Part shown: piece by piece, positions 21,626 through 45,540 of the stretch | Position numbering within the stretch: position 1 is the stretch's first letter | How the letters are laid out: every line of letters starts with the position of its first letter | Virus record (IMG/VR): IMGVR_UViG_3300033995_001164 | Span: 124,001 to 188,000 of that record | Reading direction: 5' to 3' (one strand) | Length of the DNA: 64,000 nt | Origin: a virus | Notes under the pieces: model-generated | Database searches by the model: none | What the model saw: only the letters and a program-made list of their open reading frames with translations | Told to the model about the DNA's origin: nothing | Translations under genes and position numbers: made by a program

Positions 21626-22462
21626 ATGACAACTGTTAAGACAAGTACATATTTAATTTTACTGACTGAAAAAGCCGAAAAATGTTCTCCATCCAAAGTG
21701 GAAGAATGTAGATTATTATTTAATAATAATCCCACCGTTAAGAATCTATTTAAAAATAGTATTAACCAAATCTTAAAAGAAGTTTTTCACCAATATTACT
21801 ATGAAAAAGATAAGTATTCTCCGGGAGAATCTTATGGTATTTATGATTTAGAAATGCCGGGTCGGTCAGTAATTAACAAACTAAACACAAACTATAGTGC
21901 GTTTAGTGTATTATTACGAGATGTTAATAAAGTACTCTCGGCCTTACAACAACCCATAATCATATTCCAATTCCAAACAGCCCAAGGACAAATTAGTGAA
22001 GTTAAAAGATTAAATCAATTTATCTACGAATATAAAAATAGAATATTCAATACCACTTCCCCTACATTCCAATCTTTAATGATGGTTCTGAATCAAACTC
22101 ACGCTTGGGGTCAAAAACGAGAAGACACCACAATTGAAATACTTAAAAAACGATTCGGGGGTAATAATATTATACCAATTGGTAAACTTGGAAGTAGTGA
22201 AGATATGATTGGTGGTGTTGATTGTAAAATAACTGTCGATGGTGTTTTAAAAACCTCTCAAATTAAACCATTTACTCATTTTAAAACCGAAAATGGTGCT
22301 ACTACAATAATGGGGTCCGGAAATGTTAAACGATATGATACTAATTGGTTGATATTCGCAAAAAATAATAAAGAAATTTTAATATTTGAAAATAAAAATA
22401 TTAAAATTGACGAAGGTAATTTTGTTTTTCCAGAACAAAATTTAATTTATAGTCTTTCTTGA
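21626..22462 (+). CDS. putative PD-(D/E)XK-type nuclease
   Basis: A 278-residue protein I cannot name with certainty. The C-terminal third has a nuclease-like core: HAWGQKREDTTIEILKKRFG, then GGVDCKITVDGVLKTSQIKPF, which offers an acidic residue, an Asp after a hydrophobic strand and a Q-x-K in a second strand, the usual PD-(D/E)XK arrangement. Many restriction-type and repair nucleases share it. The N-terminal half is helical and Asn/Lys-rich. It has its own host-like promoter and ends just before the ATATTTATA element that precedes the neck-like gene. Anti-host defence or genome processing would both suit. Alternative: a non-catalytic structural relative. Confidence 0.35.
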   Translation: MTTVKTSTYLILLTEKAEKCSPSKVEECRLLFNNNPTVKNLFKNSINQILKEVFHQYYYEKDKYSPGESYGIYDLEMPGRSVINKLNTNYSAFSVLLRDVNKVLSALQQPIIIFQFQTAQGQISEVKRLNQFIYEYKNRIFNTTSPTFQSLMMVLNQTHAWGQKREDTTIEILKKRFGGNNIIPIGKLGSSEDMIGGVDCKITVDGVLKTSQIKPFTHFKTENGATTIMGSGNVKRYDTNWLIFAKNNKEILIFENKNIKIDEGNFVFPEQNLIYSLS

Positions 22463-22470
22463 TATTTATA
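22462..22470 (+). promoter_or_regulatory. ATATTTATA element before neck-like gene
   Basis: ATATTTATA overlaps the stop of the nuclease-like gene and ends three bases before the ATG at 22474. A leaderless late transcript would be produced. Confidence 0.4.
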
Positions 22471-22473
22471 ATT

Positions 22474-23601
22474 ATGGCAGTTATACCGGAACCAGAAAGA
22501 AGTAAAATATATACGAGGGTCAAACATCAATTAGGAGCACCACTTAGAAGTGTTGAACTTGAAGATGAAATGATGGATTCGTTAATGGAATTATCTATTG
22601 GAGATTACGAAGAATATGTTCTTCAGTGGTTGATAGATAGTCAATGGGTTAATTTAGTTAATCTAAACATGAATGAGAAATCAGTTGCGAAGGCATTGAT
22701 TACTCGAACAATGGACTTTGAACAACAATTTAGTTATTCATATTCAAAAATTGTGGGTCTTCAAACAGAAGGTCCTTGGGTTCTAAAGAAGGACTATTTT
22801 GTATTAAGTGCAAACACTCAAACTTATGAGATTCCAGCGGGTCGAGAGGTTAATGAATTATTATGGTTTAGTGATAGACCATGGAACGCATTTGGATTAG
22901 GAGGGGCTGCCGGTGGATTTGGTATGGGTATGGGTCTTGGTGCTAGTGAGGCGGGGTTCGCCCAAATGGGAAATCAAGGTTCTTACTTTATGATGTCAGG
23001 TTTTGATTATTTATCGAGAATGCAAGAAGCAAATGTCATGAGTAGAATTTTAGGAGGTTCGCTTACCTATAGAATTACCGGATTACCTGATGGTAAGAAA
23101 AATATTCATTTATACAATACACCGGGAGGAAGATTTAATTGGAATAATATTAATGGTTATGTGGGTAAAGCCGTGTGGTATTGGTATTATGATGTGTCTC
23201 CTGATAATAGAGCCGATTGTTTAAAAAATAATCCTGATGTAATTAAATTACCGTCAGATGTTCCAATGGATAATTTAACTTGGGAAGAGTTAAATATACC
23301 GGGTCAACAATGGGTTAGAAGATGGTTTACTGCATATTGTAAAGAAACATTGGCAAGAGTTAGAGGAAAGTATAGTGGTAATCTTAAGACACCTGATAGT
23401 GAATTAACAATGGATTATCAATCATTATCGACTGAATCAAAAGATGAAAAATCAAAATTAATTGAAGAATTAACAGGTGCTGAAGGTTGGTTAACAAGAT
23501 TAAGACCTGAAAAAGTAATGGAAAGAGAAGCATTAATTGCTGAAAACTTAAACAAACAAATGAAATTTAGAGCAATGCCTCGACAAATTTACGTAATATA
23601 A
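22474..23601 (+). CDS. putative neck/connector virion protein (gp13-like)
   Basis: A 375-residue protein from the ATG at 22474; a TTG at 22459 is in frame but less likely because it lies inside the promoter-like element. The N-terminus (YTRVKHQLGAPLRSVELEDEMM) and the C-terminal block (WVRRWFTAYCKETLARVRGK, then YSGNLKTPDSELTMDYQSL) resemble phage neck proteins that link the portal to the tail; the C-terminal block has the helix-loop-helix with RGK seen in T4 gp13-type connectors. T4 gp13 has 309 residues. A Gly/Met-rich patch (GGAAGGFGMGMGLGASEAG) in the middle is unusual. Context is consistent: it is followed by a small virion-type gene. The assignment is by pattern and position. Confidence 0.45.
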   Translation: MAVIPEPERSKIYTRVKHQLGAPLRSVELEDEMMDSLMELSIGDYEEYVLQWLIDSQWVNLVNLNMNEKSVAKALITRTMDFEQQFSYSYSKIVGLQTEGPWVLKKDYFVLSANTQTYEIPAGREVNELLWFSDRPWNAFGLGGAAGGFGMGMGLGASEAGFAQMGNQGSYFMMSGFDYLSRMQEANVMSRILGGSLTYRITGLPDGKKNIHLYNTPGGRFNWNNINGYVGKAVWYWYYDVSPDNRADCLKNNPDVIKLPSDVPMDNLTWEELNIPGQQWVRRWFTAYCKETLARVRGKYSGNLKTPDSELTMDYQSLSTESKDEKSKLIEELTGAEGWLTRLRPEKVMEREALIAENLNKQMKFRAMPRQIYVI

Positions 23602-23602
23602 T

Positions 23603-23938
23603 ATGGCAATAGTAAAATCAATTCCTTCAAGAAGGATTATAAATGGAATGGTAATTGACACCTCGGAAATATCTGTAGTGTCTGAATCGGATTATAGGAC
23701 AAATGGAGAAAGTTGTATTATTGTTAGAGGTGTCTCAGAATCAATAATTATTTTAGACTCAAAAACAACTGACCATATTGTAATTAAATCAATGACTAAA
23801 GTTACGATAAAACCGGACATTGGAAAAATAGATGAAGACTATGATGAAATAGTTGCCGACCAATATGCTTGTATTGAATTTAGGTTTGTTGGAGGTAATT
23901 GGTACGTGTTGAGCTCAGATGGACTTAAACAATCATAA
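23603..23938 (+). CDS. small beta-rich virion-associated protein
   Basis: A 111-residue protein with alternating hydrophobic strands (CIIVRGVSESIIILDS, then HIVIKSMTKVTIKP) typical of a beta-solenoid or small decoration domain, ending WYVLSSDGLKQS. It is separated by one base from the stop of the neck-like gene and is followed by a strong terminator. No named family was recognised; a head-decoration or tail-associated role is a guess from fold character and operon context. Confidence 0.5.
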   Translation: MAIVKSIPSRRIINGMVIDTSEISVVSESDYRTNGESCIIVRGVSESIIILDSKTTDHIVIKSMTKVTIKPDIGKIDEDYDEIVADQYACIEFRFVGGNWYVLSSDGLKQS

Positions 23939-23965
23939 AAAAAGTGGATTATATCCACTTTTTTT
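23937..23965. terminator. bidirectional terminator between convergent genes
   Basis: A perfect 12-bp stem (7 A plus GTGGA / TCCAC plus 7 T) with a 5-base loop lies between the plus-strand virion gene and the minus-strand HNH gene. Runs of T follow on both strands, so it can stop both transcripts. Confidence 0.85.
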
Positions 23966-24563
23966 ATGTCACTCTATTTCCCTTTTTCATATTATCCTTT
24001 CCCCACAATGGTTGTAGATTAGTATAATTAGATAGTCTGATAATGTCTTCCTCATTTTTTGCCGAAGATAATGGAATTATATGGTCAATATGCCACCCGT
24101 AAAATCCCTTGTTATCCCAAGTCATACCTTCACTAAATTTATCTTCTAAGTATTTTTTCAAAAATGTTGTATCACACCCTAAATAATCTATCGAGCGATT
24201 TTTTTTAATAAGATTATTATCTCTAAAAATATCTTTTAACCTATTTCGATAATTTGTAATTAATTTAAATAATATATCATTGTTATATCTTTCTTTATTT
24301 TTCTTTGACTGATAATTCCTAATTTTATCTTTGTTTTTATCTCTCCATTTTTTATTATATTCGTATAATCTTCCCGGATTTTTTTTAAGAAATTTTTTTT
24401 TAATGTCGTCAGATTTTTCCTGATTATTTTTTCTCCAATTCTCACTGTTCTTATTTTGACATTTTTTACAGTTAGACCTTAATCCATCATGAGAATCCCC
24501 ATTTCTATAAAAATCACAAACATTTTTTTCTTCTTTACATTTACTACAAGTTTTTGTTTCCAT
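23964..24563 (-). CDS. free-standing HNH homing endonuclease
   Basis: A 199-residue protein. The N-terminus has a CxxC...CxxC zinc site (CSKCKEEK, CKKCQN). The C-terminus carries the HNH core: WHIDHIIPLSS, then NLQPLWGKDNMKKGN. A long Lys/Asn-rich helical middle probably reads the DNA target. The start overlaps the end of the RHH gene at 24544-24705 by 20 bases. It lies downstream of the DNA polymerase gene, so polymerase or its surroundings may be the homing locus. It closely resembles the second HNH gene at 28156 in domain order and zinc-finger sequence, with which it shares an upstream RHH gene. Confidence 0.85.
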   Translation of the reverse strand: METKTCSKCKEEKNVCDFYRNGDSHDGLRSNCKKCQNKNSENWRKNNQEKSDDIKKKFLKKNPGRLYEYNKKWRDKNKDKIRNYQSKKNKERYNNDILFKLITNYRNRLKDIFRDNNLIKKNRSIDYLGCDTTFLKKYLEDKFSEGMTWDNKGFYGWHIDHIIPLSSAKNEEDIIRLSNYTNLQPLWGKDNMKKGNRVT

Positions 24564-24705
24564 CTTTTCTATAATCTTTAAGTAATTGATTCACTAATGA
24601 TGATAAATTAATGTGAAGTCCTCGATAATAAGTTAATAGTTCAGGGTCTAACGCCACCGATACTTTAGTTTTCCTTTCTTCTTCTAATTTTAATTTTCTT
24701 CCCAT
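24544..24705 (-). CDS. ribbon-helix-helix regulator paired with HNH endonuclease
   Basis: A 53-residue protein not found by long-ORF searches. It contains one RHH unit: basic arm MGRKLKLEEERK, strand TKVSVALD, helix PELLTYYRGL, helix NLSSLVNQLLKDY. RHH proteins bind DNA as dimers and commonly act as repressors. Its last 20 bases overlap the start of the HNH gene, so the two are co-translated. Two ATATTTATN words and a TGTGA-N4-TCACA inverted repeat lie in the 47 bases upstream. The RHH/HNH pair is repeated at 28023-28812, which argues that the pair is a functional cassette and not an accident. Confidence 0.75.
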   Translation of the reverse strand: MGRKLKLEEERKTKVSVALDPELLTYYRGLHINLSSLVNQLLKDYRKDGNKNL

Positions 24706-24708
24706 AAT

Positions 24709-24749
24709 AATAAATATCTATAAATATAGTAAAAGTGTGATGATTCACA
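24709..24749 (-). promoter_or_regulatory. promoter and operator candidate before RHH-HNH cassette
   Basis: On the minus strand the leader reads TGTGA-ATCA-TCACA (24736-24749), then CTTTTACT, then TATTTATAG (24718-24726) and ATATTTATT (24709-24717), ending four bases before the ATG. GTGA...TCAC also occurs as GTGAAGTTCAC at 27506-27516, before the polymerase gene. Confidence 0.4.
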
Positions 24750-24752
24750 AAA

Positions 24753-27467
24753 TTATTTTATATATTCTTCCCACCCTTCTTCCGCCAAATCATAAATGTA
24801 ATCAGGGCTAACACCAACTCTGTCCCAAAATTTTAGTTCTAAGTCTGTAATTTCTAATAACTCCTCCACAGTGTCTTGGTCACCATCTTTTAACGGATTC
24901 CCACTAATTAATTCACATTGAGACTTGGTAAATATACCTCTTTTTTCAGGTTCATTGACTAATAAATTATTTCTGACCTCATCTTGAAATACAACCATTA
25001 GTGGTAATAGTTTTTTATTGAAAGTAACAACAGCCCTTGCGACATTATAATCACCTTTTAAATCAGGGTTATCCGTTAGAATATCTTTATCTAATAAATA
25101 ACAATTCAATTGAACCCCGTCATTCTTTTTTTGTACATCTCCATGAGAAGCTCTTAACCCATTGTTAACATACATAATAACATCACCCAAATTAACTTTT
25201 AAGTTTTCTTGTATTGCTAATTCCAAATGAGCCATGCGTGACATACTATTTCCAGATTTTGTTTTAGTCGTCAATCGTTTCTTATAATCATCTAACGATA
25301 ATTTAACTCTAGCCCTTTGAGCAATTTTACTTAATGAAATTTCTTTATTATAAATCTTTTGTAGGTATTCATAGTAATATTCAACAAACCCCTGACCATT
25401 ACCCTCTAATAATAATTTAACACCTTTGTCTAAAAATTCCTCAATATATAAAGGTAGTTTTTTAGATTTAATTGAATTTCCGGTTAGTTTAATTTTACCA
25501 TTAGTTTCCATTACGGCATAATTTTTTCGAGCGAGATTAATACAACTCACCCAAGTTCCGTCACAGTCTAAGGCCATTTCACCTTTTTGGAAAATATCGT
25601 TATATTCAGCAACATCGGCGTAATAACCCTCATAAACTTTATCTTTTTTTACTTTCCAATTTAACCCTTTACCAATATATCTACGAGTTTCAACTCCATC
25701 GGGGATTGTAAAGTTCATACCATCAGTATCGCAAACCAAAGAAGTATAACCTTTTTTGGTAAAAAACTTTAACATCTGTCTTAAATATTGTCTACCGGTA
25801 CAGGTAATTTTTTCACCCTTATTCATATCTCCCCAAGCGTATACTTGTGGAGCCGATAAAGCACCAAATAACGAATTAATGAAAATCTTAATTGGTAACT
25901 GCTTATTACCATATGACTCAGATTTTGCTTTGTCTGTTTCATAAAACTCCTCAGCTAATTGTTTATATTTGATACGAGTATTACGGAAATAGGTTAACAT
26001 ACCTTTCATTGCTCCCGTAACATCACAATCAGGAAATACATCGTGTACCAATTGAATTGAGGGATATAGGGAGCTAAAGTCAAGTTTTAGTACATTCTTA
26101 CTATAACCAACTTTTAAGAGTCTTGAAAGACCCCCTACGAAGTCAGTCTTAGGTTCTTTAACTGGAATGGCTAAATTATATTTATATGACCACGCTAAAA
26201 GTAACATTCTCCACAGACTTGCAGTACCCATTGTTGAAACCCTTTCATATGTTGTTGGAATCATTGCCGCCAATAAGAATGAACCTTGGTTGAACTCTTG
26301 GTCAACTTTAAGGGTTTCATCTAAGTCATCGTCAAGATACATCTCTACTAACTTATCTCCACTAGTTTTCTCGTAAGTATCAATTCGTCTTTTACATATT
26401 TCATCAATCTTAGGGTCAACACCAACTTTCTTGTAATTACCATTAGTAGTGTTTAACCAAAAATCTTCCTTGTTGGCATAAAATGGACCAATGTCTAAGT
26501 GGTCAATGTAAACACGACTTGGAGATTCCGCATTAATGTATTTGGTGATATATTTTAAACCAGCCGCTTTAATACTTGAGTTGATTGCTTGAGCCCTACG
26601 AACCGCATGGATAATATCAATAACGTTATAACCCCAAATAGAAGTTTGAGTATAAGTCTCAACCTCATTAGCCAATTTTAACATACCATCTTTACGAGTA
26701 TAAGAATGGTTAGGGTTTAATGATTTACATACCTTTTTCAAATCAATCCCCAATATTTTACTTCTTTCAAATATCCAATGCCAGTCAAAGTTTGCCGAGT
26801 TATATCCACCAATAATTGATGGCTTAAGTTCATTGATTACTTTAAAAAATTCAATGATTGCCCCCTTTTCTTCGTTTTCATCAGTACACTCAATCACTCT
26901 ATGGAATCCTTTATTGGTTTTGATTCCAATCATAAAGATACGACCATCCTTAGGTTCAAGGGAGGTCGTCTCCAAGTCATAAACCATTCGAGTAACCTCG
27001 TTATAGTTTTCAAACCCTTTGAATAATCTTTTTTCTTTGGATACAAGGTATTGTTCCACCGGAGATAAAAGAGTTATTTTATCCTTGGCTTTATCACCCC
27101 ATGGGTCACATCCTCCATCTCTAAAGAATTGGATAAGTTCTCTATATCCTTTCATGGATTTAACCAAATAGGTTAAGCCCTTTTCAAGACGTTCATTTCC
27201 ATGAGTTTCCAATTTCTCAATCAGAATTCCATACTTGGACATGGCTTCTTTCTGAGCAGCCCTTGAATCGTTATAAAATTTTAGTTGTTTTAAATCACCC
27301 ACCCAAGCGAACGGGGTAAAAGTGTCTTTACGGATTTCTTTTCCTTTGCCAGGAACTTCACGTACTTTGTAAATACAGTTGTCTCGGTAGTCATACTCGA
27401 TGGCAACTATAAATTCTTCCGGGTCATTTCCGTGGAGGAATGACTCAATTTCTTTACTGTCTATCAT
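24753..27467 (-). CDS. family B DNA polymerase with 3'-5' exonuclease, gp43-like
   Basis: A 904-residue replicative polymerase (T4 gp43: 898). Exonuclease motifs: Exo I MVYDLETTSLEP (about residue 163-174), Exo II IIGGYNSANFDWHW, and a third acidic block further on. Polymerase motifs: A KLDFSSLYPSI (about 462-472), B KIFINSLFGALSAPQ (about 525-540), C CDTDGMNF (about 578-585). The metal-binding Asp residues in motifs A and C and the exonuclease Asp/Glu pair are present, so both activities should be intact. The enzyme copies the phage genome and proofreads. Its ATG at 27467 is 64 bases downstream of an ATATTTATC element and 39 bases from a GTGAAGTTCAC palindrome. The RHH-HNH cassette lies 47 bases past its stop. 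Confidence 0.95.
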   Translation of the reverse strand: MIDSKEIESFLHGNDPEEFIVAIEYDYRDNCIYKVREVPGKGKEIRKDTFTPFAWVGDLKQLKFYNDSRAAQKEAMSKYGILIEKLETHGNERLEKGLTYLVKSMKGYRELIQFFRDGGCDPWGDKAKDKITLLSPVEQYLVSKEKRLFKGFENYNEVTRMVYDLETTSLEPKDGRIFMIGIKTNKGFHRVIECTDENEEKGAIIEFFKVINELKPSIIGGYNSANFDWHWIFERSKILGIDLKKVCKSLNPNHSYTRKDGMLKLANEVETYTQTSIWGYNVIDIIHAVRRAQAINSSIKAAGLKYITKYINAESPSRVYIDHLDIGPFYANKEDFWLNTTNGNYKKVGVDPKIDEICKRRIDTYEKTSGDKLVEMYLDDDLDETLKVDQEFNQGSFLLAAMIPTTYERVSTMGTASLWRMLLLAWSYKYNLAIPVKEPKTDFVGGLSRLLKVGYSKNVLKLDFSSLYPSIQLVHDVFPDCDVTGAMKGMLTYFRNTRIKYKQLAEEFYETDKAKSESYGNKQLPIKIFINSLFGALSAPQVYAWGDMNKGEKITCTGRQYLRQMLKFFTKKGYTSLVCDTDGMNFTIPDGVETRRYIGKGLNWKVKKDKVYEGYYADVAEYNDIFQKGEMALDCDGTWVSCINLARKNYAVMETNGKIKLTGNSIKSKKLPLYIEEFLDKGVKLLLEGNGQGFVEYYYEYLQKIYNKEISLSKIAQRARVKLSLDDYKKRLTTKTKSGNSMSRMAHLELAIQENLKVNLGDVIMYVNNGLRASHGDVQKKNDGVQLNCYLLDKDILTDNPDLKGDYNVARAVVTFNKKLLPLMVVFQDEVRNNLLVNEPEKRGIFTKSQCELISGNPLKDGDQDTVEELLEITDLELKFWDRVGVSPDYIYDLAEEGWEEYIK

Positions 27468-27505
27468 ATATTATCTTGGAGTGGTATATTAGCAATCACT
27501 TAGTT

Positions 27506-27516
27506 GTGAAGTTCAC
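27506..27516 (-). promoter_or_regulatory. GTGAAGTTCAC palindrome in polymerase leader
   Basis: An 11-bp perfect inverted repeat between the polymerase start and its ATATTTATC element (27531-27539). A related GTGA-N4-TCAC repeat precedes the RHH gene at 24705, so an RHH operator controlling both is possible. Confidence 0.35.
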
Positions 27517-27562
27517 CTTACTCATCGTAGATAAATATAGTTAATTAAATTTAAGAATCAAA

Positions 27563-27940
27563 TTAACAACAAGCGGTTTCCGAAATAAAACTTGGTTGGA
27601 TATTAATATAGAGTTCTTCTCTAATTGGAAGTATTAGATTACCCTCATCATTTTTAATCAGCACCTGACCTTGAAACCTTCCCGGAGTATTTGTATCTCT
27701 TGAAGTAAATTTATAATATACATAATATTCAGTTGGTGCACCGTCAGGTAATATTAAAGAAACTATACTACAAGGAGCCGAAACGATTTTAGGTATTCCC
27801 GTCTCCACGTCAATCATTGTAAAAAATATTGTAGAAACTTCCAAATCTCTCATAAGTTGTTCATACCCTGAGCGCCCATCTTTTACAATTTGAAATTTTA
27901 AGACCGGTAAGTTTGAATTCTGTTTAATAAAAAATTCCAT
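27563..27940 (-). CDS. small virion-type protein, BppU-N-like
   Basis: A 125-residue protein with a beta-sandwich feel. Blocks: LPVLKFQIVKDG, IFFTMIDVETGIPKIVSAPCSIV, YYVYYKFTSRDTNTPGRFQGQVLI and LILPIREELYINIQPSF. The RDTNTPGRF...LPIREELYINI pattern recurs in phage baseplate/fibre proteins that start with a BppU N-terminal-like fold, and I read it as a relative. It ends in CC. It is divergent from the RHH gene at 28023 and its 95-base downstream gap leads to the polymerase. A role in the virion surface is inferred; function is unproved. Confidence 0.45.
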   Translation of the reverse strand: MEFFIKQNSNLPVLKFQIVKDGRSGYEQLMRDLEVSTIFFTMIDVETGIPKIVSAPCSIVSLILPDGAPTEYYVYYKFTSRDTNTPGRFQGQVLIKNDEGNLILPIREELYINIQPSFISETACC

Positions 27941-27982
27941 TTTTTTTGTTTATTAATAAATATATCGTATTTTTGTTTTAAT

Positions 27983-28020
27983 AAAGTATAACTTTTCATA
28001 CTTTACAAGATATTTATAGT
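27983..28020 (+). promoter_or_regulatory. inverted repeat and ATATTTATAG element before RHH-HNH cassette
   Basis: AAAGTAT (27983-27989) and ATACTTT (27998-28004) form a 7-bp inverted repeat, directly followed by AC-AAG and ATATTTATAG (28011-28020), two bases before the RHH ATG. The layout (ACTTTAC then TATTTATAG) matches the leader of the RHH gene at 24705. Confidence 0.45.
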
Positions 28021-28022
28021 AT

Positions 28023-28175
28023 ATGAAACCAAGAAAAAAAGAAGAAGAGAAAAAGATTAAATTTGCCATTAGTTTAGACCCTAAATTATTTAAACGAATG
28101 GAAGATGATATCACAAATAAATCGAGACTAATCGAAACTTTACTTAAAGAACATTATGGAAAAAAAGATTTGTAG
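28023..28175 (+). CDS. ribbon-helix-helix regulator paired with second HNH endonuclease
   Basis: A 50-residue protein with a basic arm (MKPRKKEEEKK), RHH strand IKFAISLD, helix PKLFKRMEDDI and helix KSRLIETLLKEH. It is a different sequence from the RHH protein at 24544, but the fold and size agree. Its end overlaps the start of the HNH gene at 28156 by 20 bases, the same overlap as in the first cassette. An inverted repeat and an ATATTTATAG element lie upstream. Autorepression of the endonuclease by the RHH protein is the working idea. Confidence 0.75.
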   Translation: MKPRKKEEEKKIKFAISLDPKLFKRMEDDITNKSRLIETLLKEHYGKKDL

Positions 28176-28812
28176 TAAGTGTAAAGAAGAAAAGGAATTT
28201 TGTGAGTTTAATAAAAGAAAAGATTCGAAAGACGGTCATAGAAATGAGTGTAAAATTTGTTGGTATTTAAAAAGCCAAAATTATATTAAAAAATTTCCAC
28301 AAAAAAAACAAGAATATAATAACAAGTGGTTTTCTAAAAATACTTCTTATTATAAACAATATTATAAAAATAATGAAAAAAAATTTTTAGAGTATAAAAT
28401 AAAATTTAACGGTTTAAACCCGGATTATAATAAAAATTATTATGTTAATAATAAGGATTATTTTTCTGATTATGTAATGTTTAAATACGTTAATAATAAT
28501 TTATTTAGATTATCTCACATCATAAGAAATAGAATTAGAACATTTCTTAAATTAAAAAATCTAACTAAAACAAATAAAACTTTTGATATTGTAGGATGTT
28601 CTCCGGAATTCCTTAAAGAACATTTAGAACAACAATTCACGGAAGGAATGTCTTGGGGTAATCAAGGATTGTACGGATGGCACATTGACCACAAAATACC
28701 ATTATCTTCCTCCAATACCGAAGAAGAAATATATAAACTTTGTCATTATACAAATCTTCAGCCACTATGGGCTGAAGATAATTTGAAAAAAAGTAATAAA
28801 ATAATAAATTAA
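28156..28812 (+). CDS. free-standing HNH homing endonuclease
   Basis: A 218-residue protein with the same layout as the HNH enzyme at 23964: N-terminal zinc site (CSKCKEEKEF, CKICW), a Lys/Asn/Tyr-rich middle and the C-terminal HNH core WHIDHKIPLSSS followed by NLQPLWAEDNLKKS. It overlaps the RHH gene at its start and meets the minus-strand glycosyltransferase gene by a 4-base stop overlap. As a free-standing element it may home into a phage lacking it; the target site cannot be read. Small differences between the two copies suggest independent acquisition or old duplication. Confidence 0.85.
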   Translation: MEKKICSKCKEEKEFCEFNKRKDSKDGHRNECKICWYLKSQNYIKKFPQKKQEYNNKWFSKNTSYYKQYYKNNEKKFLEYKIKFNGLNPDYNKNYYVNNKDYFSDYVMFKYVNNNLFRLSHIIRNRIRTFLKLKNLTKTNKTFDIVGCSPEFLKEHLEQQFTEGMSWGNQGLYGWHIDHKIPLSSSNTEEEIYKLCHYTNLQPLWAEDNLKKSNKIIN

Positions 28813-30482
28813 GATTCTTTTCTTAAAGAACCATCATAGTGGTCAAATCGGTCATGCTCAGTTGGAGTTAATAACAAAATACCTGGTTTAATATTACCTT
28901 TAACAGTTTCCTGATAACAATGAGACATGAGAGTCTGCTCGAATGCGTGCGCCCATTGTGTCTCTAAATAACATTTATAATTACCTATTTTATTTAACAC
29001 AATTGGCCAGTTGGATAAATAGATTTCACCATCAACGTAAGGTAACCCCTGATGTGTTTTAATGTTATTGAATTTAGTTCTTGGTGCGTTTGGGTCTAAT
29101 CCTTGAACAGGTAATAATGGTTTTTCGGGGAATAATTCTACCCTAACATTTTGGGGTACATTGTACCATGAAAATTGTATGTCATTTGAACCATAAAATT
29201 CAGTAAAACTTAATTTTAAAAAATCAAAATTTTCATTTTTAATAATTTGTAATGATTTTGAATATAAGTTTGAAACAAATCTATTAAAACCGTTTTTACA
29301 CACTTCACCTTTTTTAGGGTAAAACGCCATGTCATCTTCAAAAAAGTAATAAAAATCCAAATCAGTTTCATCGAAATGTTCGGCAACAAATACTCTACCA
29401 CCAACAATTCCAATATTATCTTTTTTGATGTGTTCAAATCCATATTCTTCACATAGTTCCTGATATCTTGAAGTTGTCGATAGGTCAGTTGAGTTATCAA
29501 GTAAGAACTTTTTTGGTTTAAGTATGAAGTCCTTATCGTATTCCAACATTGATTTAATTAGGGTTTCAAATTGATTAGGACTATTGAATGTAATAACATA
29601 AAGTCCAACTTTGTTGGTATCCAAGGTATTCTCGACAGACACTTTCCCCTCATTTTTTGGTATTAACTTATCGTCTTTTAAATCTTCAAAAAACTTTCCA
29701 ATTAGTCCACTTGACTCAATTTCAAAATAATTAATTAAATCAGAATGTTTATATGTCATAATACTAAAGATTGATTCTTCAGTACCCATATACCCTTCTT
29801 CTAAAGTTGATTTTAACAATCCATAATAAATTCCGTTAATATCACTTATTGAACTTTTGGGACCACCAAAGAATCCACCTCGAGAAACTTTAGTTACTTC
29901 ATCACCTGCAATTGAATTTAATTTGTCATATTCAAACCCGTGTATTTCGGTCTCAGCTCCATATGGAAAACTGATAAATGAAAACTTTGACACATATTTT
30001 GATAATTTATCAAGAACTTTATCATGAGTAAAATAACCCGGATGTACAGTATTGGTTAAACCTCCATCAATCCAAAACATATATTCCGATTCAAACTTAT
30101 CCATTATTTTTGCGTCGTGTAGTAAGAACACTTTGGACATCACAAGAGGATTATAGTTTTTTAATTTTGCTTGGGTTGATTCCCCTAACCAACCAACTTG
30201 GTCTATCCAACTTGGTCTTGTTCTAATAACTTGAATTATATTGTAAAACTCAGAATTTGTGAACCAAGATAAAGGTCTTTCAATAAATTGAGTGTTTGAT
30301 TCATTTCTTTTTTTGAAAACAAACTCTTTAAGTTCATTATCACCAAATATTATCATATTTTCTTGAACATCTAATAATTGTTCAAATTTATCTAAATAAT
30401 GTTGATAAGACCTAGACCAACCTTCAGATAAGTCACCTCTACCAATATCCCAAATTCCGGTTACTAATGTTATTTTATTCAT
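28809..30482 (-). CDS. two-domain glycosyltransferase, HtrL/YibB-like N-terminal domain
   Basis: A 557-residue protein. The N-terminal half starts ITLVTGIWDIGRGDLSEGW, a HtrL/YibB-like opening, with a metal-site candidate MFWIDGG near residue 135, then RGGFFGG further on. The C-terminal half starts VGLYVITFNSPNQFETL and includes YYFFEDDMAF, a GT-A type DxD-like acidic cluster. Two glycosyltransferase-like domains in one chain suggest sequential sugar additions, or one active and one binding domain. It sits at the end of a six-gene glycosyltransferase run downstream of the fibre genes. Donor and acceptor are unknown. The neighbour at 31860 has a similar N-terminal domain fused to a methyltransferase. 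Confidence 0.65.
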   Translation of the reverse strand: MNKITLVTGIWDIGRGDLSEGWSRSYQHYLDKFEQLLDVQENMIIFGDNELKEFVFKKRNESNTQFIERPLSWFTNSEFYNIIQVIRTRPSWIDQVGWLGESTQAKLKNYNPLVMSKVFLLHDAKIMDKFESEYMFWIDGGLTNTVHPGYFTHDKVLDKLSKYVSKFSFISFPYGAETEIHGFEYDKLNSIAGDEVTKVSRGGFFGGPKSSISDINGIYYGLLKSTLEEGYMGTEESIFSIMTYKHSDLINYFEIESSGLIGKFFEDLKDDKLIPKNEGKVSVENTLDTNKVGLYVITFNSPNQFETLIKSMLEYDKDFILKPKKFLLDNSTDLSTTSRYQELCEEYGFEHIKKDNIGIVGGRVFVAEHFDETDLDFYYFFEDDMAFYPKKGEVCKNGFNRFVSNLYSKSLQIIKNENFDFLKLSFTEFYGSNDIQFSWYNVPQNVRVELFPEKPLLPVQGLDPNAPRTKFNNIKTHQGLPYVDGEIYLSNWPIVLNKIGNYKCYLETQWAHAFEQTLMSHCYQETVKGNIKPGILLLTPTEHDRFDHYDGSLRKES

Positions 30483-30500
30483 ATTATTTTTTAGTTATTT

Positions 30501-31184
30501 TTATTTATAATTTTCGTATATATTATAATATAGGTTAAAAATAGGGGGGACATTAAGAAATGAGTGTACTTTGTGTTCCGAACTTAAAATCCAATTTTCC
30601 GAAGAATATCTATGTTCAAATAAAATAGATTCGTCTAATTTTTTAACATAATTAGATTTGGTCCAAAAAAAGTTACCATTAAATATTTGAATCAACTTTG
30701 TTTTACCTCTAACATTACCGGCATGGTCTTGGTAATTAATTCCACAACAATCAAATCCGTTATCTAATGTTTCAACACAGATTTTCCAATTAGTAATTAA
30801 AAAATGTTCCATCATTAATCTCCACTCTTTAACAGGTTTTTCTCGTATTGACTCGTATTGTGTAACACCTTTAGTATGAAGATAAAGAATATTAGTATTA
30901 TCATTATCGGACATAGAAAATTCTTTAAGTTTACTTAAAGTTTTTGATTCTCCAAATGAATTATTTTCATTAATGAACATTAAATTAAGACTCGGTATTT
31001 TTAATAAAAGTTCCATTAATGTTTCTTCTTCGTTATCAATTTTTTTGTCAAAAAAAACACCAATATTTAATGTTGATACTTCTAATAATCCTGAATTAGT
31101 TAATGATTCAATTTGTTCTTTTACAATATTAACCCAATTATTAATTAAAAAAATGTGATAAAATATTTGTATTTTTTTACCCAT
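30501..31184 (-). CDS. glycosyltransferase-like protein
   Basis: A 227-residue protein from ATG 31184 (MGKKIQIFYHIFLINNWVN); an in-frame ATG at 31235 is also open but would overlap the neighbour by 59 bases, while 31184 gives an 8-base overlap and a more typical start. Blocks IFYHIFLINNWVNIVKEQ, ILYLHTKGVTQ and FNGNFFWTKSNYVKKLDES fit a GT-A-like transferase fold seen in capsule-type enzymes. No clear DxD can be placed, so activity is uncertain. It is the second gene of the cluster and translationally linked to the one before it. Confidence 0.5.
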   Translation of the reverse strand: MGKKIQIFYHIFLINNWVNIVKEQIESLTNSGLLEVSTLNIGVFFDKKIDNEEETLMELLLKIPSLNLMFINENNSFGESKTLSKLKEFSMSDNDNTNILYLHTKGVTQYESIREKPVKEWRLMMEHFLITNWKICVETLDNGFDCCGINYQDHAGNVRGKTKLIQIFNGNFFWTKSNYVKKLDESILFEHRYSSENWILSSEHKVHSFLNVPPIFNLYYNIYENYK

Positions 31185-45511: not shown

Positions 45512-45540
45512 GTTCCGTCTGACAGAACGAAATATTTATA
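45512..45540 (+). promoter_or_regulatory. imperfect palindrome and ATATTTATA element before homing endonuclease
   Basis: GTTCCGTCTGACAGAAC (45512-45528) is a 17-base palindrome with one mismatch. It lies directly before ATATTTATA (45532-45540) and the ATG at 45545. The downstream gene has an N-terminal helix-turn-helix, so this could be its own operator. Confidence 0.4.

Follow-up and report, generated by a model that had tools for sequence, protein, structure and literature searches.

Optional HNH endonuclease cassettes with candidate RHH autorepressors on both sides of a viral family B DNA polymerase gene

The window, i.e., the whole stretch of DNA analyzed here, comprises 64,000 nucleotides and spans 124001-188000 in a virus record that is 309,177 bases long. 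It contains two gene pairs, each consisting of a small RHH gene followed by a gene for an HNH nuclease: RHH1/HNH1 on the minus strand (24705-23964) and RHH2/HNH2 on the plus strand (28023-28812), with a polymerase gene (polB) and its neighbor g125 between them. An earlier note made from the sequence alone had described two such cassettes. A comparison of the ORFs matched its positions, sizes, opposite orientations and 20-bp overlaps of RHH with HNH in both cassettes exactly, and the inverted repeat it had assigned to each was found as well. The RHH genes, which the earlier note considered too short for most gene callers, measure 153 to 162 nt; common gene callers accept 90 nt. The features of the region are as follows.

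24544-24705, minus strand: RHH1, 53 aa, strand type KTKVSVAL, CcdA match with an E value of 1.6e-5
23964-24563, minus strand: HNH1, 199 aa, N-terminal CxxC..CxxC zinc ribbon, helical linker and C-terminal beta-beta-alpha-metal (HNH) domain
28023-28175, plus strand: RHH2, 50 aa, strand type KFAISL
28156-28812, plus strand: HNH2, 218 aa, architecture as in HNH1
24753-27467, minus strand: polB, family B DNA polymerase; occupied and empty alleles differ in the last codons
27563-27940, minus strand: g125, conserved neighbor gene, 125 aa (from the ORF and conserved gene order)
24736-24749, unstranded: palindrome TGTGATGATTCACA, candidate RHH1 operator (from sequence inspection, shuffles and palindrome retrieval)
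27983-28004, unstranded: palindrome AAAGTATAACTTTTCATACTTT (AAAGTAT-N8-ATACTTT), candidate RHH2 operator (from shuffles and palindrome retrieval)
24710-24716, minus strand: TATTTAT promoter-like element of RHH1, 11 nt upstream of the RHH1 ATG
24720-24726, minus strand: second TATTTAT copy in the RHH1 leader
28011-28017, plus strand: TATTTAT promoter-like element of RHH2, 12 nt upstream of the RHH2 ATG
23969-24764, minus strand: site-A insertion, approximate limits; comprises polB tail TATATAAAATAA, leader, RHH1 and HNH1 and is missing from close relatives
27968-28811, plus strand: site-B insertion, approximate limits; comprises leader, RHH2 and HNH2, between the stop of a 557-aa gene and the g125 promoter
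23934-23968, unstranded: terminator-like two-way inverted repeat between HNH1 and a 111-aa gene; empty sites carry it too
27955-27967, minus strand: CGATATATTTATT, g125 promoter-like element, also present at empty site B; insertion boundary

The RHH genes are real and not spurious ORFs. RHH1 scored above the Pfam cut-off for CcdA (25.6 versus 22.4 bits), with a match limited to profile positions 1-36 of 71, the DNA-binding half. RHH2 searched alone against Pfam gave no match; it can be aligned over its full length with RHH1 and 32 relatives, and its predicted helices (20-28 and 33-45) lie at the positions expected for RHH helices. Across the family, CcdA matches at E<0.1 were obtained for 13 of 34 members, and relatives also match RHH_3 and BrnA, weakly. 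Pooled pN/pS outside the overlap was 0.215 over 103 non-independent pairs, which indicates purifying selection. A monomer model (pLDDT 69.5) contained both helices with the strand unformed, and its top fold match in the PDB, Reg576, was not significant. Comparison of the RHH profile with PDB sequences returned designed repeat proteins and, as the best full-length match, 2kel at a weak E value of 0.07. We take this entry to be SvtR of Sulfolobus virus SIRV1, which on this weak match resembles the family as a viral RHH protein of 56 aa; we know of no linkage of SvtR to a nuclease.

For both HNH proteins, the best family match was the PHROG endonuclease VII family phrog_1035 (E values of 1e-18 for HNH1 and 5e-22 for HNH2); these matches are strong and those to PF01844 weak. 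The catalytic residues of the HxDH...N...N motif (H176, D178, H179, N200 and N209) and the two CxxC pairs did not vary among 31 sequences. A structural model (pLDDT 83.5) showed a zinc-ribbon-like N terminus and a beta-beta-alpha-metal C terminus, joined by a helical linker whose length varies. Its best fold match was the beta-beta-alpha-Me domain of Hpy99I, with a probability of 0.90 but an E value of 1.4, above usual limits; sequences of published structures gave no match to the HNH. The linker of HNH2 (residues ~45-135) varies in length among relatives, with whole proteins of ~180-265 aa, as if it were made of variable helical repeats. F-CphI, a phage homing enzyme, carries an endonuclease VII motif (PMC6083498); the likeness lies at the level of the PHROG endonuclease VII family, the motif here being HIDH...NLQPLW...DN..K.

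A small gene with a CcdA-like half ahead of an overlapping effector gene might suggest a type II toxin-antitoxin system, in which RHH would be a CcdA-like antitoxin neutralizing an HNH toxin and the pair would thereby keep the cassette in the phage. Although the score of RHH1, the CcdA matches in the family, the antitoxin-first overlapping order and the upstream palindrome would be typical of such a system, the RHH proteins end at 50-54 aa, with the CcdA match confined to the first half of the profile, and have no toxin-binding C-terminal tail. Moreover, the HNH is a beta-beta-alpha-Me nuclease and not a CcdB-like toxin, and PADLOC gave no match of note. Taken with the re-pairing of RHH and HNH described below, we regard a toxin-antitoxin function as highly improbable.

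The 309-kb record contains HNH-family genes at seven places, four of them with an RHH gene directly upstream: the two cassettes in the window and two more at ~114.5 kb and ~67.5 kb of the record. The paralogues at 69.6, 95 and 196 kb of the record (G000:C1; L069, L066, L070) have no RHH, which shows that this nuclease family can do without such repression. The 196-kb paralogue has a different N-terminal extension and also a TATTTAT leader. The earlier note had recommended a search for RHH genes overlapping HNH genes elsewhere, and profile searches with the collected family retrieved 52 distinct RHH-HNH cassettes in IMG/VR loci. Of the 46 cassettes with a near-complete HNH, 27 have an overlap of 20 bp, 9 one of 23 bp and 6 one of 11 bp. 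The 20-bp value results in part from the HNH Cys-Ser codons (tgTAGt), which supply the RHH stop codon, and is thus inherited and not repeatedly invented. The HNH start codon is its own, usually ATG, and the HNH frame is +1 relative to RHH.

In a tree of 58 HNH sequences, those with an RHH partner clustered (6 label changes versus 18 in shuffles, with 0 of 500 shuffles as low); deep support in this tree is weak. A role of RHH as general partner of the HNH family was rejected on three results: 80 cellular loci with 85 HNH ORFs contained no RHH match, tblastn likewise gave none in INPHARED, and the HNH genes of Flavobacterium elemovirus have no annotated RHH-sized partner overlapping upstream. 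No relatives emerged when phage records were searched at the DNA level.

A PolB search yielded 80 loci, which were dereplicated at 95% polB identity to 53. These loci share a conserved gene order (557-aa gene, 125-aa gene, polB, 111-aa gene, 380-aa gene), in which we distinguish site A (polB/111-aa gene), site B (557-aa gene/125-aa gene) and site C (125-aa gene/polB). In the dereplicated set, RHH and HNH were present together at 14 of 155 intergenic positions (site A, 4/53; site B, 9/50; site C, 1/52), and HNH-only or RHH-only occupancy was found at none. The remaining positions carry neither gene and are mostly tight empty junctions. The earlier note had named missing conservation of RHH with HNH in relatives as the finding that would speak against its proposal; no exception to their co-occurrence was seen at the polB-region positions.

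Site B is empty in most loci, where it measures exactly 19 bp up to the ATG of the 125-aa gene and reads TAACAATATATTTATTGTT or a close variant; at occupied sites, the insert lies between the upstream stop codon and g125's own TATTTAT element, which is retained. In nearly all other loci, site A has no insert and measures 6-55 bp. Occupied site A goes with the polB tails WEEYIK, WEEHIK, WEQYIK or WENFM, and most empty alleles have a longer tail, WEEKL.... One locus (L105) has no cassette and a gap of 7 bp, yet it carries the occupied-type tail WEEHIK and is likely the scar of a precise cassette loss. Empty sites are present in relatives of 88-90% PolB identity, which supports mobility of the cassettes. 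The cassettes are intergenic, between intact genes, and terminal or target-site repeats were not evident at the insertions. An intron origin was considered and rejected, as an Rfam scan of 22000-31000 gave no match.

Different cassette lineages occupy the same site, and the RHH type is tied to the insertion site. Other optional inserts occur at the junction of the 125-aa gene and polB (L096, L101, L121, L123, L130, L141 and L147) and at that of polB and the 111-aa gene (L106 and L117). They encode unrelated small proteins, e.g., MKLTNLL... and MKYIITENRLDK..., which indicates that these junctions are insertion hotspots beyond the HNH cassettes. The cassette genes could be ordinary optional cargo of a homologous-recombination hotspot, an HNH plus a small regulator of g125 or polB, without homing. 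Since the site-B palindrome is flanked by divergent promoters, RHH2 could also act on g125. However, related cassettes are also found at unrelated sites, including the two others in the record, the insert is confined to leader, RHH and HNH, and the palindrome goes with RHH and not with the neighboring gene. We consider this explanation unlikely.

The leaders of both cassettes contain the element ATATTTATA, which the earlier note had listed as a cassette feature. Its presence was confirmed, but its attribution to the cassettes was not. Of the 21 non-cassette transcription-unit starts in the window, 10 have TATTTAT in sense orientation no more than 60 nt away (expected, 1.3), but only 2 of 32 inner genes of transcription units do. 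The motif also precedes g125 at empty sites and HNH genes that lack an RHH. A cassette-specific role of ATATTTATA was therefore rejected in favor of a general phage promoter-like motif. TATTTAT is found ~11-22 nt 5' of the ATG at many unit starts, e.g., at 45533, 58531, 36751(-), 18628(-) and 42504. It looks like the -10 element of the phage's own promoters. In L316, L339, L352, L363 and L364, the spacing between TATTTAT and palindrome is constant though the ATG lies ~12 nt farther away, which indicates that TATTTAT is part of the promoter and is not tied to the start codon. For most cassettes, the position of TATTTAT implies an mRNA start near the ATG, and the mRNAs it would drive are possibly leaderless.

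For every main RHH subtype, a distinct inverted repeat stands at a typical place ahead of the promoter motif: TGTGANNNNTCACA for KTKVSVAL, GTATRACTTTTCATAC for KFAISL and AAAGTGAAACTTT(T) for KFGISL. In the window, TGTGANNNNTCACA was found once, against an expectation of 0.07. Over 29 representatives, leader palindromes exceeded dinucleotide shuffles with a combined p of 7e-5, a value that is optimistic because the representatives share ancestry. Some of the leaders examined, e.g., those of RHH types KVGVSI and KIGITV, have no clear palindrome. In a stronger test, the palindromes alone were used as queries against 2.9 million viral contigs (IMG/VR); the retrieved set includes some cassettes from which the patterns had been read. 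TGTGANNNNTCACACTTTT gave 60 matches, 25 of them directly 5' of an RHH gene (16 distinct), and all 25 were of type KTKVS(V/I)AL. With GTATRACTTTTCATAC, 19 of 67 matches lay 5' of an RHH gene (8 distinct; 19/19 KFAISL), and with AAAGTGAAACTTTTACTAT 3 of 4 (3/3 KFGISL). An HNH gene followed all 47 RHH genes retrieved in this way. This concordance of RHH subtype and palindrome supports autorepression.

In two further matches (L285 and L375), the palindrome is followed by an HNH remnant and the RHH has been lost; these are decaying cassettes. A second perfect palindrome, TTGTGATACATCACAA, lies within a 742-aa ORF in L247 (G000:C1:71851-71866) and is possibly an extra RHH1 site or a chance occurrence.

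Sequence distances between cassettes revealed which parts travel together. RHH distance correlated with leader distance (r = 0.42, p = 2e-4; 0.415 with HNH distance removed), and the value for leader versus HNH distance given RHH was -0.01. The correlation was 0.23 for RHH versus HNH and 0.26 for the N- versus C-terminal parts of HNH. Adjacency of RHH and leader could account for part of their correlation through linkage; RHH and HNH are equally adjacent, yet correlate less. Individual pairs agree in kind: L006 and L147 have 100% identical RHHs and 47% identical HNHs, and HNH2 of the window is 80% identical to the HNH of L036, the RHHs being 62% identical and of different subtypes with different palindromes. 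RHH thus tracks the leader and not the HNH, which indicates that RHH and palindrome form one block behind which nuclease bodies are swapped. Such a block would be predicted for an RHH that acts on leader DNA and surprising for one that must fit the HNH protein, and the re-pairing argues against a toxin-antitoxin pair.

The same data bear on the idea that RHH is mainly an accessory DNA-binding guide of HNH, or is fused to it by frameshifting in the overlap. Invariable adjacency and overlap, and the tie between RHH type and insertion site, would be in line with such a role. However, the palindromes that go with RHH are located in the leader of the cassette itself and not in the empty target, RHH and HNH exchange partners freely, and the HNH has its own start codon and zinc ribbon in the +1 frame, with no slip site evident. 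A guide or fusion partner is accordingly a very unlikely function of RHH.

From these patterns we infer binding, repression, cleavage and homing, and we consider it likely that the cassettes are free-standing HNH homing-endonuclease genes, each equipped with a dedicated RHH autorepressor. The self-regulated homing module suggested in the earlier note is thereby supported at the sequence level by co-occurrence, empty sites and RHH-palindrome concordance. A cassette of ~0.8 kb (leader, RHH and HNH) would insert as a block into conserved intergenic junctions such as sites A and B. An RHH dimer would bind the palindrome ~10-40 nt upstream of TATTTAT and shut off its own RHH-HNH transcript, and the 20-bp overlap would couple low-level HNH translation to that of RHH. 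When phage DNA enters an RHH-free cell, the leader would be unrepressed, and RHH plus a little HNH would be made from one transcript in a burst of nuclease that could cut cassette-less alleles of coinfecting phages. RHH would then close the promoter and silence HNH, with less damage to the host phage.

Small autoregulators directly upstream of, and often overlapping, a nuclease gene are familiar from C-protein restriction-modification systems, which are mobile modules in which the C protein delays or dampens nuclease expression. The likeness is a small autoregulator gene before a nuclease gene; C proteins are helix-turn-helix proteins that activate as well as repress, and the cassettes described here contain no methyltransferase. 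The aca operons, exemplified by Aca10, likewise combine a phage cargo gene with a small regulator that represses the operon (PMC9410881), cargo and regulator both differing from those found here.

Parallels exist in phage T4, whose homing endonucleases are controlled through binding of the enzyme itself (I-TevI), through borrowed promoters or through overlap with an upstream host gene; for segC, segF, mobA and mobC, an overlap of 11-24 bp with the upstream ORF has been read as low-level coupled translation (PMC2988022). The seg and mob genes resemble the cassettes in being intergenic, optional, located beside replication or conserved genes and overlapping an upstream ORF. In contrast to these genes, which overlap a pre-existing phage gene and in several cases use its promoter, the overlapped gene here encodes a small regulator, travels together with the nuclease gene and is preceded by a promoter and palindrome of its own. 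Expression of I-TevI, from the T4 td intron, is likewise curbed by repressor binding at the nuclease's promoter (PMC2988022), but there the nuclease itself is the repressor, whereas a separate RHH protein is proposed here. A separate RHH repressor carried with a nuclease was not described in the open-licence literature on phage homing endonucleases and RHH proteins, mostly titles and abstracts. The cassettes may be a seemingly undescribed variant of free-standing homing endonuclease genes with their own repressor gene, a statement for which such a body of text is weak evidence of absence.

Free-standing homing endonucleases are widespread in phages, but how they spare the phage carrying them is understood for only a few T4 examples, in which the nuclease is its own repressor or relies on host signals. 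A repressor that is portable, independent of the nuclease and equipped with readable operators would, if true, be a distinct solution. The palindromes alone already find further cassettes in viral contigs, and their sequences are suited to direct binding tests. Dedicated repressors would also explain the coexistence of several related nucleases in one genome. More tentatively, RHH gene and operator might form a separable control and docking module, with endonuclease bodies exchanged behind a site-conserved autorepressor and RHH-operator specificity diversifying among sites, so that cassettes coexist without cross-repression; we regard this extension as possible but doubtful. If it is true, an incoming cassette would be silenced wherever the matching RHH resides, which would amount to a superinfection-like immunity between selfish genes.
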